A DNA stretch of 41,980 bases, taken from positions 1 through 41,980 of the IMG/VR virus record IMGVR_UViG_3300045283_000203. The stretch is one strand, 5' to 3'. This DNA comes from a virus. Below are positions 3,183 to 41,980 of the stretch, one piece after another. Position 1 is the stretch's first letter. Each line of letters begins with the position of its first letter. The translations under genes were made by a program, and so were the position numbers. Under the pieces are notes generated by a model that saw nothing but the letters and a program-made list of their open reading frames with translations, was not told the DNA's origin and made no database searches.

Positions 3183-3722
3183 TCAGAAAGGCTCGTCGTT
3201 TCCTTTGACTTCGCCGTCGTCAAAGGCTGATCCCGCACTCGGGCGCCCGTCGAGCCGCTGGCGGCCTTCGCTCTCGATCACCTGAACATGGTTCAGCCCA
3301 AAAGAGACGCCTTTCTTGCCGGGCTGATCCCAGGCGAACGGCACCACGTTGGCGCGAACCAATTGACCGGACCAAACCTCTTCCGGTAACCGAATGTCCT
3401 GCCGGTTGCTGTCGACGATGCCGGGCTTGTTCTTCGACCACGGCGAAATGTAGGTGTGGCCGGGATGATAGCCATCATAGCTCTTTTTGCCGGCATCGCG
3501 GAATGGCATTTCGACGGTCTTGAGATTGACGTTGTCGCCCCACTTCTTGCGTGCGGCCTGGATGCAGGCGTCTTGCAGCGCCTTGTAGGCTGGGGACTTC
3601 TGCTGCGTCGGATCGAAGATCAGCGAGCAGTTGTAAACCGGGTCCTGGCCTTCGAAGCGGGGTTTAGGGGTGAAAAGCTGGGCGAACGAGAGGGTGGCGT
3701 AGGGGGTATTGATCGCGGTCAT
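3183..3722 (-). CDS. ssDNA-binding protein, DUF2815 type
   Basis: 179-residue protein with features of the DUF2815 phage single-stranded DNA-binding family: an N-terminal TPYATLSFAQLFTPKP strand, YNCSLIFDPTQQKSPAYKALQDA, and a C-terminal VSFGLNHVQVIESEGRQRLDGRP core. The tail is acidic and ends in DEPF, as in SSB proteins that recruit partners through an acidic, Phe-ended C-terminus. It would coat ssDNA during replication and recombination, consistent with the upstream nuclease, helicase and resolvase. ATG 3722 fits the conserved N-terminus; a GTG at 3755 would add 11 unrelated-looking residues and would leave little room after the promoter at 3772-3799. It is last in the early minus-strand operon and may also have its own promoter. 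Confidence 0.8.
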   Translation of the reverse strand: MTAINTPYATLSFAQLFTPKPRFEGQDPVYNCSLIFDPTQQKSPAYKALQDACIQAARKKWGDNVNLKTVEMPFRDAGKKSYDGYHPGHTYISPWSKNKPGIVDSNRQDIRLPEEVWSGQLVRANVVPFAWDQPGKKGVSFGLNHVQVIESEGRQRLDGRPSAGSAFDDGEVKGNDEPF

Positions 3723-3808: not shown

Positions 3809-4555
3809 TCAAAATAATCCTTCGTCGTCGAACGCCGCAGCGGCGCGGTTTTGATGCTGACGCGCGAAAGCCGCGCACTCGGTTCGCCGCACGCACCAAC
3901 GGCAATGTGACCCTGCGTTTTCGGTTGGGTCACCCTGAGCAATCCTGAGCACGGCGGGCCTCACCTCGCGCTCGCTCCAACTCCAAAGCTCGCTCAGCGT
4001 CGTCTCATGCGTACGCAGTGGGTCGCAGCCGGCACGCGGCTGGCAGATCGCCAGCGTTACCTTGGCATCCGCGTACTGCTCCTTGACGTGGCCTGCTAGT
4101 GCCAATGCGTAGAGCTTGAGCTGCGGAGCGTCGGGCGCAACAACGTGGCCCTTGCCGTATTTGAGATCAGCAATGACGATGCTGCTGTTGGAGGGGACAT
4201 GGACACCGCAATCGAGCGTGCCCCAGACCATGCCGTCCGTGTCGGGAACATGGAGGCGCTTTTCGAGCAACACCTTGGCGTCCGGCAGCAGCATCATGCA
4301 CTGAACGAAAGTGATGTAGAGGTTCAGAGCCCGGCACATGCCGGGCGACACGATAAACTCTTCACCCTCGACGGTGACCTTATCGGGGAGGAAAATATCC
4401 CCCTTCAAGGTCATCTCGGCGACCGCGTGCGCGGCGGTGCCCTCGCGGGCGTACTTCGACGACGGCCGCAGCCTATCCTTGGTCTTGGTGACGCTGGCCG
4501 GGCATTGAAGCCACATCGCGGCCGACGAAGGCGAACAGGCCGCATGGTTGCTCAT
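3809..4555 (-). CDS. Cas4/RecB-like PD-(D/E)XK nuclease with Fe-S cysteines (DUF2800 type)
   Basis: 248-residue nuclease of the DUF2800 type. Visible motifs: GTAAH (His43), WGTLDC (Asp115), VIADLKYGKG (Asp130, Lys132), which together form a PD-(D/E)XK core. Four cysteines in the Cas4/AddB arrangement, Cys18 near the N-terminus and Cys218, Cys221 and Cys227 near the C-terminus, predict a 4Fe-4S cluster. The expected role is exonuclease processing of DNA ends during phage recombination, partnered by the ssDNA-binding protein just downstream. Its ATG overlaps the stop of the XRE gene (ATGA), so translation is coupled. Confidence 0.82.
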   Translation of the reverse strand: MSNHAACSPSSAAMWLQCPASVTKTKDRLRPSSKYAREGTAAHAVAEMTLKGDIFLPDKVTVEGEEFIVSPGMCRALNLYITFVQCMMLLPDAKVLLEKRLHVPDTDGMVWGTLDCGVHVPSNSSIVIADLKYGKGHVVAPDAPQLKLYALALAGHVKEQYADAKVTLAICQPRAGCDPLRTHETTLSELWSWSEREVRPAVLRIAQGDPTENAGSHCRWCVRRTECAAFARQHQNRAAAAFDDEGLF

Positions 4556-4980
4556 GCGTCTTTGTCTCTTTCGACGAGCAAAAGAACGTCTGCCGTGGTT
4601 TCAAGGAGCGGCGCTAGCCTCTTAGCCCACTCGACAGTGAGTTTCCGGTCGCCGTTCGACCAGCGGGTGATGTTCTGCTTATTGGTGTCCAAACGATCGG
4701 CAAGTTCGGTGGGGCCTTTACCGGCCTTTTCCATCGCTTTCCGTAACCCATTTGGATATTTTTTCTCGACTGGTTCGGGCATAGCCTCGGACACCACTGC
4801 TGACATCCATTTCTCTCCGGCGGTATCCAGGGCAATCGCAAGTGCCGTAAGGTCTGAAATCGATAACCGTTCCAAGGTTGTCAACTCGGCCGCAGGATCG
4901 TGAAGCAGCACCCGGGCCCAGTCACGTATGTCATTCGCGATGTCTTGCTTACGATCCTTCGGTTGCCAGTGCGGGCTCAC
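4552..4980 (-). CDS. XRE/Cro-type helix-turn-helix regulator
   Basis: 142 residues. The C-terminal half (about residues 78-135) reads as a Cro/CI helix-turn-helix: GLRKAMEKAGKGPTELADRL, then NKQNITRWSNGDRKLTVEWAKRLAPLL, with the recognition helix at NKQNITRWSNG. The N-terminal half (DIANDIRDWARVLLHD...LTALAIALDTAGEKW) is helical and unrecognised. The start is GTG in a GTGA overlap with the upstream gene, and the stop overlaps the nuclease ATG, so it is embedded in the early operon. It may repress early promoters, for example those with paired palindromes at 14319 and 14616; that link is inference. Confidence 0.8.
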   Translation of the reverse strand: MSPHWQPKDRKQDIANDIRDWARVLLHDPAAELTTLERLSISDLTALAIALDTAGEKWMSAVVSEAMPEPVEKKYPNGLRKAMEKAGKGPTELADRLDTNKQNITRWSNGDRKLTVEWAKRLAPLLETTADVLLLVERDKDA

Positions 4981-8242: not shown

Positions 8243-10195
8243 ATGAAAAGCCAACTCCACCTCGATTTTGAGACCTATTGCGACCTCGATCTAAAGAAGG
8301 TCGGCCTCTACCGCTATGTCGCGCACCCCTCGTTCCGGGTCATGGCCGTAGCCTGGAAACTACAGGGACGACTGCAAACAAGCGTGCCGATGCGTACCGT
8401 CCAGCCGCGACCGTTGGAACTGGTGCAGGCGCTCGGGAAGGCGGACGTGCAGGGCCATGCCTGGAATGCGGCGTTCGAAACTTGCGTGCTGGCGCGGCTC
8501 GGGGTGGGTCTTGCCAACCCGTTGTCCTGCACCATGCAACGGGCGCTGGCCTATGGTTTGCCGGGCAAGCTGGAAACCGCAGCGGCCGCGCTCGGGGTCG
8601 CGCATCAGAAGGACATGGCGGGGCACCGGCTGATGCTGAAGATGTCGCGGCCGCCTCCGCTGGAGGCGGCAGCCTGGACGGATGAGGACTATGCCCGGCT
8701 AGCGGATTATTGCGGCCGCGACGTCGAGGCCGAGGCGGCGCTCGCGGCGGTGATCCCGGAACTACAGCCTTCGGAGCGGGAACTGGCGGAACTCGACGCC
8801 CGCATGAACAGGTCCGGGGAACTGGGCATCGACCTCGACCGGGTGTTGGCCCTGCAAGCCGCAGCGCAGGCCGCTGAGAGGGGAGATGCGGCACGGTGCG
8901 CGGAGCTGACAGACCGGGCGGTCACCTCACCCGGGACCCAGACGGCGCGGCTGCTGGCGTGGCTGACCGCAAAAGGCGTCAAGCTACCCGACGCGGCCCG
9001 GGCCACCGTCGAGGAAACCACGGCAATGTTCGGCGACGAACTCGCCGACGACGTGGTTGAGGTGCTGCAAATTAGGCTCCGGATGGCGCGGGCGTCGACC
9101 CGCAAGCTGCAGCGGATGTTGGACATGCGCGATCTCAAGGACGGGGCGCTGCGGGGCCAGTTCCAATTCTGTGGTGCCGGACGTACAGGACGATGGTCAG
9201 GACGCGGGGTTCAGGTTCAGAACTTGCCCCGGGTTCCGCCGGGGTTCTCGCCGGAGCTGTTCGCTGGGATGGCCCGTGCTGCCCTTAGCGAGGGCACTGG
9301 TGCGTTAAACGCGGTGGCGGCTGATCCAGTGCTGGATTGCGTGAGCTGGTCGCTACGGGCTTGCCTGAAGGCCACAGACGGTCATCGGGTTTTGTGGTCG
9401 TTCGATTTCGCGCAGATCGAAGCTAGGGTATTGGCGTGGCTGGCAGGCCAGCAGGACGTGCTGGCGGTGTTCGCCTCGGGCGCGGACGTCTACGTCTGGG
9501 CGGCGGCGCAATTCGGGTCAGTGGACCGGCAGCTGGGCAAGGTCTTGGTGTTGGCGCTCGGGTTCGGCATGGGCGCGGTCAAGCTGCGCGAGCAAGCCCG
9601 GAAGTCCTACGGGGTGCGGATGACCGCAGGCGAGGCCGAGCGGTTCAAGGAGGAATGGCGGCAGAGTAACGCCAAGATCGTGCGGTTTTGGTACGAGATG
9701 GACGCGGCAGCGAAGCGCGCCATCCTCAACTACGGGACGGTGGTGGCGGTCGGCGGCTCGGGGGTGGCGTTCACCTGCACGTCGCGGACCTTGCAGATGC
9801 GGCTGCCGTCGGGGCGGGTGCTGTACTACCACCAGCCGCGACTGGATCCGGGTTCGGGGTCGATCGTGTATTGGGGCACCGAGGTTGGCGGGAGGTGGGC
9901 GGAGCAGCGCACATGGGGCGGCAAACTGGCGGAGAACGCCACCCAAGCCGTGGCCCGCGACATCATGGCCGAAGCGATGCTCAGAGGGTGGCGGCGCAAG
10001 GCGCTGGTGCCGTGCATGACCGTACACGACGAGCTGGTCTATTCAGTATGCGCCGGCACTCATCAGTACCTGCAGGATCTGATGTTGGAGCCGGCGCCGT
10101 GGGCTGGCGGACTGCCGTTGGCCGGCGAAAGCAAGCTGATGCGGGCTTACGGGGTGCGGGATAAGTCCTTTGGGACAATTGCCATCGCGACTTAA
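8243..10195 (+). CDS. Family A DNA polymerase with 3'-5' exonuclease
   Basis: 650 residues. The exonuclease domain comes first: Asp8 and Glu10 in LDFETY, GHAWNAAFE, and YCGRDVEAE near residue 155. The polymerase domain follows: FCGAGRTGRWSGRGVQVQNLPR, motif A SFDFAQIEAR near residue 388, a motif B region RQLGKVLVLALGFGMGAVK, and motif C TVHDELVYS near residue 595. There is no 5'-3' exonuclease domain, as is usual for phage replicative PolA enzymes. It would copy the phage genome together with the primase-helicase encoded next. The start has GGAAAGG 9 nt upstream and follows the divergent control region shared with the early operon. Confidence 0.93.
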   Translation: MKSQLHLDFETYCDLDLKKVGLYRYVAHPSFRVMAVAWKLQGRLQTSVPMRTVQPRPLELVQALGKADVQGHAWNAAFETCVLARLGVGLANPLSCTMQRALAYGLPGKLETAAAALGVAHQKDMAGHRLMLKMSRPPPLEAAAWTDEDYARLADYCGRDVEAEAALAAVIPELQPSERELAELDARMNRSGELGIDLDRVLALQAAAQAAERGDAARCAELTDRAVTSPGTQTARLLAWLTAKGVKLPDAARATVEETTAMFGDELADDVVEVLQIRLRMARASTRKLQRMLDMRDLKDGALRGQFQFCGAGRTGRWSGRGVQVQNLPRVPPGFSPELFAGMARAALSEGTGALNAVAADPVLDCVSWSLRACLKATDGHRVLWSFDFAQIEARVLAWLAGQQDVLAVFASGADVYVWAAAQFGSVDRQLGKVLVLALGFGMGAVKLREQARKSYGVRMTAGEAERFKEEWRQSNAKIVRFWYEMDAAAKRAILNYGTVVAVGGSGVAFTCTSRTLQMRLPSGRVLYYHQPRLDPGSGSIVYWGTEVGGRWAEQRTWGGKLAENATQAVARDIMAEAMLRGWRRKALVPCMTVHDELVYSVCAGTHQYLQDLMLEPAPWAGGLPLAGESKLMRAYGVRDKSFGTIAIAT

Positions 10196-10326: not shown

Positions 10327-12606
10327 GTGCTGCATGATAACGATAGCTCACGGTTCCTCCAAGCGGTATTTCCGGATTACGGCCGCCACGGGGTGTTCGC
10401 CCATCGTCTGGATCCTCGGGGCATGGCGCATACCCGGGATAGGACGGGGCTGGACTTAACGCGCGACTGTTACTGGTCGATCGCGGCGTTCCCGGACGAT
10501 GGCCACGCCACACGAACGCTAGCGCGGGCGCAAGAGGTGCGGGCGCTGGTGGTGGACGATGTCGGGTCGAAGGTGCCCGAAGGCGCGGTACGGCTCGCGT
10601 TGGGCGATGCTACGGCCATTGTCGAGACGTCCTCGGATAATTTCCAGTGGGTGTATCGGCTTTCCGCTCCGGTCGCGGTGGCGGAATGGGACGGGACCTT
10701 CGCCGAGGTCGAGCGCCTGGTGGGGGTGGCGTTGGAGGGCCGCGACGCGGTGCATTTGTTCCGGTTGCCCTGTGGCGTGAACACGAAGAAGGGGCGCGGG
10801 GGGTTTCGGGTCCGCTTGGTTGAACTCAACCCCGAAATCGAGTTGAGCGGCCTGGTTCCGGCCGCAGCTCACGGTCAATTCACGCTGGCGGAGGAGGCTC
10901 CGGGGCCCAAGATCAGGAACATCGGGGGATTGCTGCAGCTGATCCCTAATGATTTGGCGGTCGACCGCGCGCGGTGGGTGGACCGCGCGCATCAGATCAA
11001 GGCGCTCGCAGCCGACGAGCGCGAAGGCGGCCGGGCGTTCGACGCCTGGTCGCAGACGTGGCCGGGAGTGGTCGACGCGGCCGAGACCGCGCGGGTGTGG
11101 GACAGTCTGCCCGAGGTGACACGGACCTCGGGACGCGAGCTGTTGGTGGCGGCGGAAGCGGCTGACGCGGTGGGGTTCGCGCGGCTGATGAATGCGGAAG
11201 CGGGCTTGGTATTCGACGACAACGCGGTGCTGGCGCGGGCTCCGGGGGTTGCGGGTGATGTGGAATTCTTCGTCGATCAGGAGAAGTCGTCGATTGAAGT
11301 GGTCAAGCACTTTGCCGGCCGGCTGCGCTGTGTCGGGCGCGGCGACTGGCGGGAATTCGACGAAGGGACGGGGCGCTGGCGGGAATGGACCGGCGACCAC
11401 ATGCTGCGGCGGGTGTTGGAATTGGTACGGGCGCGCAAGGGGCGGGCGTTGGACCCGGAGGTGTCGAAGAAGCTGGCTTCGGTGAAGTTTATCGAGGGGA
11501 TCGCGCGGGCGGCAGCCTTGCATGTCTCGGTGATCGCCAAGGTCACGGACTTCGACCGTGTCGCGCTGTTGTTGGGGGTGCCGTCGGGGGTGATCGATTT
11601 GCGGCCGGGGGCGTCTCGTCAGGTGCGGCGGGGCCGGGTGTCGGAGATGGTGTCGAAAGCGATGTGGGTGGATCCGGCACCGGCAGGGACCGGGTGTCCG
11701 GAGTGGACCCGGTTCTTGGCGGAGTTCACCCGTGGGGATGCGTCGCTAGCGGAATGGCTGCAGGTGCGGGCCGGCTATTGCCTGACCGGATTGATGGACG
11801 AGTACATCCTGCCGTTCTACCACGGCTCCGGCGGCAACGGCAAAAGCGTGTATTTGAATGCGCTGCGCTCGGTGTGGGGCGAGTACGGGGCGCAAATCGA
11901 GCACCGATTATTGTTTGAGAAGACCGGCGGCTATCATTTAGCTCCTTTGGCCGTGCTGGCGGGGGTGCGGCTGGCGATTGTGACGGATGTCCCTCAGGCG
12001 GCATCGTGGGATGTCCACATCATGAAGATGCTGACGGGTGACGACGCGATCACGGCCAATCGCATGCATCAGAACCCGATCACGTTCAAATCTACGGCGA
12101 AGGTTGACGTCTCGGGCAATGGCGAGCCGGTGGTCAAGGACATGGACGAAGGGGTGCGGCGACGGCTGAAGCTGATCCCGTTGACGTCGCAACCTAAGGT
12201 CATCGACAAGCAACTGTCTAGAAAGCTGTTGGACGAGTACGGGGCGATTTTGTCATGGGCGCTGGCGGGACTGGACAAATACTGGGCGTTGGGAGGGCTT
12301 CCGATATCCAGCACGGTTGATGATGCGACAAAGGAATATCACAACATGCTCGATCCGTTCCAAAGGTGGTTGGATATCGCCGTTGCTGAAGACCGGTCAC
12401 AAGGGGCCAAGCTGTCAGCCTCAGATATGTTTCGGTCGTGGGATACTTTCCGCAGCGGCGAGAGTAGGTACGGTGCAGCGCCAGTTGATGCGCAAAGGCT
12501 GGTCCGTAAGATGAGGGATAAGGGTTTTGATTTTAGCTCGTTGAATGGGCGATCCATTCTGCGGGGGTACAAACTTAATAACATCGACTTCGATAGTGTG
12601 TTTTAA
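10327..12606 (+). CDS. Primase / SF3 helicase (D5, P4-type)
   Basis: 759-residue replication protein. The N-terminal part resembles archaeo-eukaryotic primase-polymerase domains of phage replication proteins (VRALVVDDVGSKVPEGAV, TSSDNFQWVYRL, VHLFRLPCGVNTKKG). The C-terminal part is a D5-type superfamily 3 helicase: Walker A GSGGNGKS near residue 500, KTGGYHLAPLAVLAGVRLAI, KMLTGDDAITANRMHQ, and the VKDMDEGVRRRLKLIPL sensor/arginine region. It would unwind and prime the origin. The start is GTG 10327, with AAAGG 9 nt upstream. The candidate origin lies immediately downstream. Confidence 0.88.
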   Translation: MLHDNDSSRFLQAVFPDYGRHGVFAHRLDPRGMAHTRDRTGLDLTRDCYWSIAAFPDDGHATRTLARAQEVRALVVDDVGSKVPEGAVRLALGDATAIVETSSDNFQWVYRLSAPVAVAEWDGTFAEVERLVGVALEGRDAVHLFRLPCGVNTKKGRGGFRVRLVELNPEIELSGLVPAAAHGQFTLAEEAPGPKIRNIGGLLQLIPNDLAVDRARWVDRAHQIKALAADEREGGRAFDAWSQTWPGVVDAAETARVWDSLPEVTRTSGRELLVAAEAADAVGFARLMNAEAGLVFDDNAVLARAPGVAGDVEFFVDQEKSSIEVVKHFAGRLRCVGRGDWREFDEGTGRWREWTGDHMLRRVLELVRARKGRALDPEVSKKLASVKFIEGIARAAALHVSVIAKVTDFDRVALLLGVPSGVIDLRPGASRQVRRGRVSEMVSKAMWVDPAPAGTGCPEWTRFLAEFTRGDASLAEWLQVRAGYCLTGLMDEYILPFYHGSGGNGKSVYLNALRSVWGEYGAQIEHRLLFEKTGGYHLAPLAVLAGVRLAIVTDVPQAASWDVHIMKMLTGDDAITANRMHQNPITFKSTAKVDVSGNGEPVVKDMDEGVRRRLKLIPLTSQPKVIDKQLSRKLLDEYGAILSWALAGLDKYWALGGLPISSTVDDATKEYHNMLDPFQRWLDIAVAEDRSQGAKLSASDMFRSWDTFRSGESRYGAAPVDAQRLVRKMRDKGFDFSSLNGRSILRGYKLNNIDFDSVF

Positions 12607-12784
12607 GTGGGCTAAAAGTGGGCTAAGCGGGCTAAGTGGCCGATCTCAGTATTCTATCTATTATGTGCGCGCGGTCGCGTATAGGTTAAAATTAAAACGT
12701 ATAGGGGAGAATACCTGAACCGGGCACTTAGCGCGCTTAGCTCACTTATGTTCTCGTTTTGTTTTTGGTTTTGTTGGGCTGCCG
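12607..12784. other. Intergenic candidate replication origin with iteron-like repeats
   Basis: 178-bp gap between the convergent primase-helicase gene and the 118-aa gene. It begins with three tandem GGGCTAA repeats (12609-12635), repeated in inverted orientation at 12725-12747. The middle is AT-rich and carries a direct pair CGTATAGG (12678-12685 and 12698-12705) separated by 12 A/T bases, with a 20-bp period. A T-rich stretch (12749-12774) ends it. Iterons, an AT-rich core and a neighbouring SF3 primase-helicase are the usual context of a phage origin. A large bidirectional terminator is the alternative. Confidence 0.5.
12616..12747. repeat. Long imperfect inverted repeat (40-bp arms, 52-bp spacer)
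   Basis: Left arm 12616-12655, right arm 12708-12747. By hand alignment without gaps, 32 of 40 positions pair, including 23 of the outer 26 and a perfect inner 7-mer (GTATTCT / AGAATAC). The outer part consists of repeats of AGTGGGCTAAG-like units. It could extrude as a cruciform or fold in RNA. Confidence 0.85.
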
Positions 12785-13141
12785 CTATTGCGCCTGTAGA
12801 ACTGCATGGATGCGGATACGTGGCTTTGCCGTTTTGCGCTTGATTGCGTAGGCCGTAAGAAGCTGTTCGACGCGCGTCGCCAGTATCAGGACCGCAGCGC
12901 TTTGCTGTGGGGCTGCCGTTTGATAGTTTTGTAGCGTCTGTTTGATCTGCGTTGCGAGCTGCGGTTGCTGCAGCGCGAATTCGATCAGGTCGGCGTTCCT
13001 GGCGCTCGCCGAGAGGATGCCTTTGTGGTCGAGGAAGGCTTTCCAGCCGGGGTGGGCCTTGACGCGGGCGCGGACCTGGCCGCGCAATGAGGTTGGGATG
13101 GGCGTGTCGGCCGTTAGGAGAGGGCCTGAGAGGTTTAACAT
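12785..13141 (-). CDS. Hypothetical 118-aa protein
   Basis: No family recognised. The protein is mostly helical and Gln/Ala-rich (LIEFALQQPQLATQIKQTL, then QNYQTAAPQQSAAVLILATRVEQLL), with a basic C-terminus (IKRKTAKPRIRIHAVLQAQ). It begins MLNLSGPLLTADTPIPTSL. It lies downstream of the terminator of the DUF932 gene, so it probably has its own, unseen, promoter or depends on readthrough. No convincing ribosome-binding site is visible before the ATG. Its position next to the candidate origin would suit a replication accessory role, which is speculation. Confidence 0.55.
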   Translation of the reverse strand: MLNLSGPLLTADTPIPTSLRGQVRARVKAHPGWKAFLDHKGILSASARNADLIEFALQQPQLATQIKQTLQNYQTAAPQQSAAVLILATRVEQLLTAYAIKRKTAKPRIRIHAVLQAQ

Positions 13142-14655: not shown

Positions 14656-15465
14656 ATGGTAAAAGCAGCATTGGTTCCAAGGCGAGGTGGGGGTCAGCGC
14701 GGCGTTGTGTTGCTTGGTGTTGAGCTGAAAGACGCCAGGGAAGAGATGTTCGCGGTTATGGTCTGTGACGGCCTGCCTTTGAGGCTGGCGTACAAGCGAG
14801 CAGGTTTCGAGAGCAGGGATAACAACGCGCCTTCCAAGCTTTTCAATTTACCGCGCGTTCAAGAGCGGGCGCATAAGATACTCGAGGCACGCCGCACAAC
14901 GGGTGTTGTCAGCCTCAGCGAGGTCACTGACATGCTCAAGAGGGTTTATGCTGGCGCCCATAGCGCAGAGGAGTACTCAGCCGCGCACAATGCGGCGTTC
15001 TCCTTGGCGAGGCTGTATGGCCACGTCACGGACAAGGCGACCTTGGAGGTGATCCGCCGGCCAAGCCGTGATCCCGACGCGCCGAGCGAACAGGTGTTAA
15101 GCGATTGGGTAGCGTCGCTGCCTGTGGTTGGGCCTGCAGTTTCGAGCCTGGAAGGCCCGTCTCGCGGCGCGCCCGCCGCGCCATTAGGGCCCGGGCCCTC
15201 GCAACCTGTGCCGAACTATCCGCCGGTTTGTCAACCAGGCCTTGCGGGCTCGGGCCCTCAGGGCCCGGGCCCTCAGCTGGATTTGTTCAATGATATCAGC
15301 GGCTTAGCGCTGCCCGGCGACCGGGCCCGGCAATCCGAAAACGGGGCCCCAACTAAGCCGGTAACTGGGACCCCTGATAAGCGCGCCCGCTTCCCCCTAT
15401 TAGAAAACGGGTCCCCTTTTGCGGCTGAGGGTACGCCTTACCCCAGCGCGGAGGAGCTGTTTTGA
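14656..15465 (+). CDS. Terminase small subunit (probable)
   Basis: 269 residues. The N-terminal region LKDAREEMFAVMVCDGLPLR, then LAYKRAGFESRDNNAPSKLFNLPRVQERAHKIL, is the DNA-binding helical domain typical of small terminases, followed by VVSLSEVTDMLKRVYAGAHSAEEY as an oligomerisation-like helix. The C-terminal third is Pro/Gly-rich and disordered (PLGPGPSQPVPNYPPVC). The start is uncertain: ATG 14656 fits, while the in-frame ATG 14584 would overlap the divergent promoter. Its job is to recognise the packaging site and feed DNA to the large subunit encoded next. Two 14-bp GC palindromes lie in its 3' part. No late promoter was identified upstream. Confidence 0.7.
   Translation: MVKAALVPRRGGGQRGVVLLGVELKDAREEMFAVMVCDGLPLRLAYKRAGFESRDNNAPSKLFNLPRVQERAHKILEARRTTGVVSLSEVTDMLKRVYAGAHSAEEYSAAHNAAFSLARLYGHVTDKATLEVIRRPSRDPDAPSEQVLSDWVASLPVVGPAVSSLEGPSRGAPAAPLGPGPSQPVPNYPPVCQPGLAGSGPQGPGPQLDLFNDISGLALPGDRARQSENGAPTKPVTGTPDKRARFPLLENGSPFAAEGTPYPSAEELF
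15186..15273. repeat. Two copies of the palindrome AGGGCCCGGGCCCT inside the terminase gene
   Basis: Perfect 14-bp palindromes at 15186-15199 and 15260-15273. The second is preceded by an overlapping direct repeat CGGGCCCTCAG (15251-15261 and 15266-15276). They encode Gly/Pro residues of a disordered tail, so coding constraint on them is low. Packaging recognition (pac) sites often lie in or near the small terminase gene, so this is a candidate site, though GC-rich Pro/Gly coding could also produce it. Confidence 0.5.
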
Positions 15466-41711: not shown

Positions 41712-41980
41712 ATGGCCGTTATCCACGTTACCGACGCCACCCTAAAAGGGCAGTTAACCGGAAAAGAGTACACCGGCCCGGTTGAAGAAGGCGCCACGTA
41801 TACCGGCGACGTGATTTACCAGGACGCGCCGATCCCGCCCGATCCGGGGCCAGATCCCAGTCCGGAAAGCGGATGGACCGTATTCACCGCGAGCAACGAC
41901 ACCAAGAAGTTCTACGTCTCGGCCTCCGGCAACGACAGCAACGACGGGCTCAGCGAGGCCAAACCGAAGAAGACCATCAA
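41712..41980 (+). CDS. Tailspike, N-terminal part (continues at position 1 across the junction)
   Basis: Real start of the tailspike: ATG 41712 with GGAG 7 nt upstream, encoding [20 protein letters not shown] and then the same Pro/Asp linker and [12 protein letters not shown] opening as the gene at the start of the window. It is open to the end of the window. Relative to the other copy the protein differs only by F/Y and G/S substitutions here and by I-H versus I-N in the first residues. Confidence 0.85.
41720..41980. repeat. Terminal repeat, copy 2
   Basis: Partner of the repeat at 1-261: collinear, without gaps, with 16 mismatches in the first 142 positions and a perfect final 119. Confidence 0.85.

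Follow-up and report, generated by a model that had tools for sequence, protein, structure and literature searches.

Inverted iteron arrays behind a P4-family primase-helicase gene mark a probable replication origin in an uncultivated tailed phage

In SaPI Rep and SCCmec Cch2, a C-terminal domain binds iterons located directly downstream of the protein's own gene (PMC7581432), and in pRN1 deletions and relocation have placed the origin directly 3' of an AEP-SF3-wHTH Rep gene (PMC4234260). Here we analyzed the IMG/VR record IMGVR_UViG_3300045283_000203 over its full 41,980 bp (the window), in which the 178-bp intergenic gap 3' of a P4-family primase-helicase gene holds a long inverted repeat. 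The sequence evidence suggests, with a probability that we put at roughly 0.83, that this site is an iteron-type replication origin, which the helicase encoded just upstream reads with its C-terminal winged helix. Such an origin would share with SaPI the position directly downstream of the helicase gene, the short iterons, and the recognition by a C-terminal domain (PMC7581432); it differs in belonging to a tailed phage, which encodes a family A polymerase of its own, and not to a satellite, and in having 9-bp units of another sequence. The likeness to SCCmec Cch2 lies in the Primase_Cterm/D5_N helicase, the direct repeats just 3' of the gene and, as proposed for the window, the C-terminal-domain binding seen in Cch2, and the SCCmec repeat ACCACTTA resembles CCACTTA/TAAGTGG of the window; in contrast, Cch2 has only three iterons in one array, and its primase is a separate, unrelated protein. 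Binding of Cch2 survived deletion of the inverted repeats. P4 alpha is likewise a P4-family primase-helicase whose C-terminal winged helix binds repeats (PMC4234260), but its primase is of the Toprim type. The pRN1 system (ORF904) resembles the window in that an origin of ~100 bp with a large inverted repeat directly follows the AEP-SF3-wHTH gene, whereas its repeat is, according to its authors, a stem-loop without iterons and the arms in the window are iteron arrays. P4 requires two sites (ori1 and crr), and its iteron sequences differ.

The window appears to be a near-complete phage genome, because its two ends (1-261 and 41720-41980) overlap imperfectly over 261 bp with 94% identity; judged from these ends, it is probably complete, with either strain variation or an assembly-joined terminal repeat. 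A search for direct DNA similarity in the phages collection found none. In addition to the polymerase, the phage encodes a large terminase, a portal protein, an SSB, an exonuclease, a Holliday junction resolvase, and an SNF2 helicase. The proposed initiator scores 180 bits against TIGR01613 (cut-off 108.7), with D5_N and DUF5906 also above their cut-offs. On its primase side PriCT_2 alone was found, and residues 1-200 gave no Pfam primase match. While the AF2 model of the full-length helicase (5 rows) reached a pLDDT of only 41.6, the model of the C-terminal 103 residues (pLDDT 74.5, moderate confidence) forms a helix-helix-beta-hairpin fold; among solved structures, Foldseek places it closest to the C-terminus of the PrimPol of African swine fever virus, which is also a primase-helicase, and to the RFX winged helix (RFX-DBD), with a probability of 1.0 and an E value of about 0.01. 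The model thus supports, with moderate confidence, assignment of the helicase C-terminus as a winged-helix DNA-binding domain.

Table 1. Coordinates of the putative origin and of associated genes and domains in the window
Feature	Position	Strand	Details
Family A DNA polymerase	8243-10195		the phage's own
P4-family primase-helicase	10327-12606	+	proposed initiator; TIGR01613 primase_Cterm, D5_N, DUF5906, PriCT_2
C-terminal winged-helix domain	12295-12606	+	proposed iteron reader; AF2 model and Foldseek
Predicted recognition helix	12490-12519	+	domain residues 66-75; aligned AcaML1-type positions co-vary with iteron bases 6 and 8
Left iteron array	12605-12639	+	AAGTGGGCT 12605-12613, AAGTGGGCT 12616-12624, AAGCGGGCT 12625-12633, partial AAGTGG 12634-12639
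Inverted repeat	12616-12655 / 12708-12747	.	40 nt per arm, 32/40 paired (80%), 52 nt between arms
Core between arrays	12648-12715	.	dyad ends GTATTCT 12649-12655 / AGAATAC 12708-12714
Right iteron array, inverted	12725-12747	-	CACTT 12725-12729, CGCTT 12734-12738, CACTT 12743-12747; 9-bp spacing
Convergent small ORF	12785-13141	-	unknown function; faces the putative origin

The 40-bp inverted arms with 32/40 pairing described in the earlier note are present exactly as it gave them (Table 1). They constitute the top inverted repeat of the window (score 24, against 17 for the next), and the 230-bp region containing them compares with a maximum score of 12 in 40 dinucleotide shuffles. Folded as DNA, the region gives a z value of -8.4, with 0/200 shuffles as good. 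Each arm is made of head-to-tail 9-bp units (AAGTGNNNN), which bears out the claim that the arms are built from repeat units; the first unit of the left array overlaps the helicase stop codon TAA (12604-12606), so that the array begins earlier than the first reading had it. When AAGTGGGCTAAGTGG was searched with up to 3 mismatches, 6 occurrences were found in the window, 5 of them at this site, against 0.73 expected. The core has a GC-rich centre and an A/T-rich right half carrying the conserved AGGGGA (12703-12708). The AT-rich core proposed earlier therefore holds for the stretch 12682-12715, which has 32% GC compared with 62% phage-wide, a modest enrichment, and does not hold for the centre. 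As in SaPI/Cch2-type origins, the two arrays flank the A/T-rich stretch and short direct repeats stand directly downstream of the helicase gene; arrays that flank an A/T-rich region were reportedly described for SaPI by Ubeda et al. in 2007 and 2012. Overall, inverted iteron arrays describe the arms better than a hairpin does. An isolated iteron-like match (GAGTGGGCTAAGAGG, minus strand, 4618-4633) lies within an HTH-regulator ORF (4552-4980) and may be due to chance; apart from this weak match, no further iteron-like array was found in the window. An Rfam search for structured RNA at the site returned no match at E <= 1, and the structured-RNA reading was dropped.

Comparison with close relatives revealed that this architecture is maintained. 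Four contigs (L002-L005) encode helicases with 58-78% identity, and in 4/4 of them the helicase stop codon is directly followed by three units of the AAGTGnnnn type, the core and then three units in inverted orientation, with the unit, the 9-bp spacing, and the mirror symmetry kept despite diverged flanks. AAGTG at three positions 9 bp apart is invariant or nearly so in 5 relatives, and the CACTT blocks are kept; the conserved alignment columns comprise the AAGTG/CACTT blocks, GTATTC, and AGGGGA. The nnnn part of the unit varies between phages, with the changes present in both arms. The earlier note had also pointed to a pair of CGTATAGG elements within the core; both are present (12678 and 12698), but the relatives retain just the right-hand one, as AGGGGA..AT, and with one copy alone conserved a functional pair was rejected. 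When 2.9 million viral contigs were scanned for the exact pattern of three AAGTGNNNN units followed by three inverted ones, only three contigs matched, all known helicase relatives; searching again for an AAGTG pattern, this time with a shorter gap, gave no match, and a protein scan of genome_contigs gave none. The small minus-strand ORF that faces the putative origin is conserved in several relatives (L004, 9141-9479). It is no fixed neighbour, its homologue in L004 being located beyond an inserted plus-strand ORF.

One further contig, L006, shares only the N-terminal half of the protein, has a VapE-type helicase and carries 9-bp arrays at the end of the gene, while its own relatives combine the same primase half with other units (AGGTTACAG, CATCTGGAA). 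In L006 and L107-L110, this N-terminal primase half (45% identical) is fused to a VapE-type and not a D5-type helicase, which we read as a swap of the helicase half with the origin layout kept. We had considered the invariant AAGTG as a GTG primase start site shared with the pRN1/NrS-1 PrimPol, and dropped the idea because the L006 relatives with the same primase half have these unrelated units. A universal TATAGGG core motif was likewise set aside: roughly half of the close and L006-type sets contain it, against a background of 0.3% of 230-bp stretches, but only 3/42 regions of the AcaML1-type family described below do, and it is therefore not general.

The same layout with other units was found at more distant P4/D5-family loci. 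Different iterons occupy the same place in AcaML1 (TGACGGGTC), MissDaisy (AGGGACATG), R9.2 (TGACGGATG), and a Listeria phage (GGTGGATAG), and the layout also appears in an Enterococcus phage, Pthi1, ZoeJ, and Karkharias, and weakly in Javan55. Among 14 distant D5 helicases examined, arrays were absent within 350 bp of the stop codon in 6 (Kenzers, Phives, Gambol, PTXU04, Dubu, and Shambre1), and BIP-1 gave a marginal array signal; rereading its stem-loop as iterons was unsupported. Two collection scans yielded 80 AcaML1-type and 8 mycobacteriophage-type loci. After removal of near-duplicates, the inverted repeat behind the stop codon exceeded all 40 shuffles in 51/57 regions, with a mean score of 18.5 after the helicase stop compared with 8.8 in control stretches of the same contigs. 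A 7-mer copy count proved powerless as a direct-repeat statistic against coding controls, and lag autocorrelation was used instead. The self-identity of the arms peaks only at lag 9, reaching 0.71 in the close relatives and L006 and 0.52 in the 80 AcaML1-type arms, against about 0.2-0.3 at other lags; in the few mycobacteriophage arms the peak falls at lag 10-11, and in some mycobacteriophages the arms are ~155 nt apart. Four loci (L062, L064, L079, and L080) carry two tandem inverted iteron pairs, that is four arrays, downstream of the helicase stop.

To relate the repeats to their putative reader, we set the iteron distance of each pair of AcaML1-type phages against their protein distance in successive windows along the protein; the helicase core of this family shares ~35% identity with that of our phage. 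The unit classes of the family include TGACGGATC, TGACGCAGC, TGACGCATC, TGAAGGATT, and TGACCGAAT, and the left and right arms are 91% identical within a genome compared with 73% between genomes. Iteron distance tracks the last ~100 residues (windowed raw r of 0.83-0.88) and shows almost no relation to the primase and helicase portions. The overall correlation is r = 0.86 with the C-terminus, against 0.17 with the remainder of the protein and -0.01 with the downstream gene, which is equally close. This last comparison is an important control, since mere physical linkage would act on the downstream gene as well. The partial r of the C-terminus is 0.87, and within the TGAC[GA] class alone (34 sequences) it is 0.44; in both cases 0/5000 permutations were as high. 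Neighbours such as L065 (unit TGACGGATC) and L071 (unit TGACGCAGC) have DNA that is 94-98% identical up to about 190 bp before the stop codon; past that point, the C-terminus falls to 68-85% and both arms to 60-77%, while the core between the arms stays at 90%.

We then sought the best-associated columns in the 824-column alignment, disregarding positions of the unit at which only one or two sequences vary. The best columns lie in the motif G-[S/A/P]-Q-[K/R]-R-F-[A/S]. At unit base 6, K goes with G and R with C (counts 14, 2, 0, and 18; p = 9e-8, ignoring relatedness), and at unit base 8, S goes with T and A/P with G (20, 2, 0, and 12; p = 2e-7, ignoring relatedness), the S/A/P position being two residues before the K/R position. 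Mapped onto a tree built from the remainder of the protein, the matched states changed about 7-11 times, mostly jointly (K/R 10, base 6 9, joint 11). In a separate scan, 44/45 new loci obeyed the K/R-base 6 match and 41/45 the S-A/P-base 8 match; these loci were absent from the first set but come from the same collection, and their lineages are not all independent. Since the repeats and the DNA-reading tail of the helicase change together, part of the reading code can be derived from sequence alone. In the five-member family of the window the residue-base match is not evident, as the window and L002 share the unit and differ around the recognition helix. The C-terminus of the window nevertheless models as a winged helix, in which the motif aligned to AcaML1-type relatives falls at the start of the recognition helix, and the specificity match is accordingly transferred to it by homology. 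With the unit, spacing, and symmetry kept in four close relatives, the layout at distant loci, and this C-terminal co-variation in the AcaML1-type phages, the earlier proposal of an iteron origin gains support.

In the mechanism that we propose, the C-terminal winged-helix domain of the P4-family helicase would bind the 9-bp units in the left and right arrays, and two helicase rings would load as a double hexamer, one flanking each side of the core and facing opposite ways, since the arrays themselves point toward each other. The core would then melt in its A/T-rich part, and the primase half would prime for the phage's family A DNA polymerase to extend, giving two forks. By analogy with SaPI Rep, Cch2, P4 alpha, and pRN1, such binding, ring loading, and melting are the most likely course of events.

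An unlikely alternative, yet the strongest one, is that the helicase binds here for copy control, incompatibility or autoregulation, like P4 crr, and replication starts elsewhere. All the sequence evidence bears on recognition by the helicase and none on the start of synthesis, and one of the two tandem inverted pairs in L062, L064, L079, and L080 could be a control copy. The GC skew turn that the earlier note named as a check failed to appear: over the whole window, the cumulative skew has its maximum at 15,155 and its minimum at 3,403, without a turn at 12.6 kb, although a skew turn is a weak origin criterion for phages. Against a control site, no other such array was found in the window (the weak match at 4618-4633 aside), symmetric arrays around an A/T-rich core are easier to reconcile with loading and melting than with simple repression, and in SaPI and pRN1 it is the corresponding downstream site that serves as the origin. 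Next to the skew peak at 15,155, a short way upstream of the large terminase gene, lies a second inverted repeat (15176-15198 / 15246-15268); this region (15155-15273) is possibly a packaging site or a composition switch.

It is less probable still that recognition depends on the shape of an extruded hairpin or cruciform, the mode proposed for the stem-loop of pRN1, and not on iterons read base by base. The strong folding of the strand agrees with such a structure, and a stem-loop occupies this place in pRN1, where its integrity matters, and, as its authors suggest, in phage BIP-1. However, the 9-bp direct repeats within the arms vary together, something that pairing by itself would not require, specific bases track specific recognition-helix residues in relatives, and the arms of some mycobacteriophages are far apart. 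The cruciform considered in the earlier note is thus possible but secondary to the arrays with their 9-bp period. A bidirectional transcription terminator, the earlier note's main alternative, suits the convergent gene order and the strong inverted repeat of the window but is very improbable, because neither strand shows a compact GC hairpin with a T-run, nothing terminator-like or T-tract is found at 12604-12750 (the sole candidate, 12903-12936, is within chance), the loop measures 52 nt, the structure is still present when the downstream neighbour is co-directional, as in AcaML1-type phages and L004, and the co-variation of the iterons with a DNA-binding domain would be left unexplained.

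Preferring the iteron origin read by the helicase, we note that this kind of origin is already known and that the new part is the specificity code. In phages with P4-family primase-helicases, the winged helix and the downstream iterons quite likely form an exchangeable origin-specificity cassette that has switched repeatedly among close phages and whose base recognition can be read (K/R with G/C at base 6; S versus A/P with T/G at base 8). The analysis places a probable origin for an uncultivated phage lineage and extends the rule of iterons directly behind a P4/D5-family helicase gene from satellites and SCCmec to many tailed phages. If true, switching of the cassette would divide related phages into distinct origin types, much as plasmids fall into incompatibility groups. 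The loci offer a natural data set in which the DNA-reading helix of an initiator and its origin repeats change together, and origin specificity and the compatibility of co-infecting phages, satellites, and prophages therefore become testable by binding assays.
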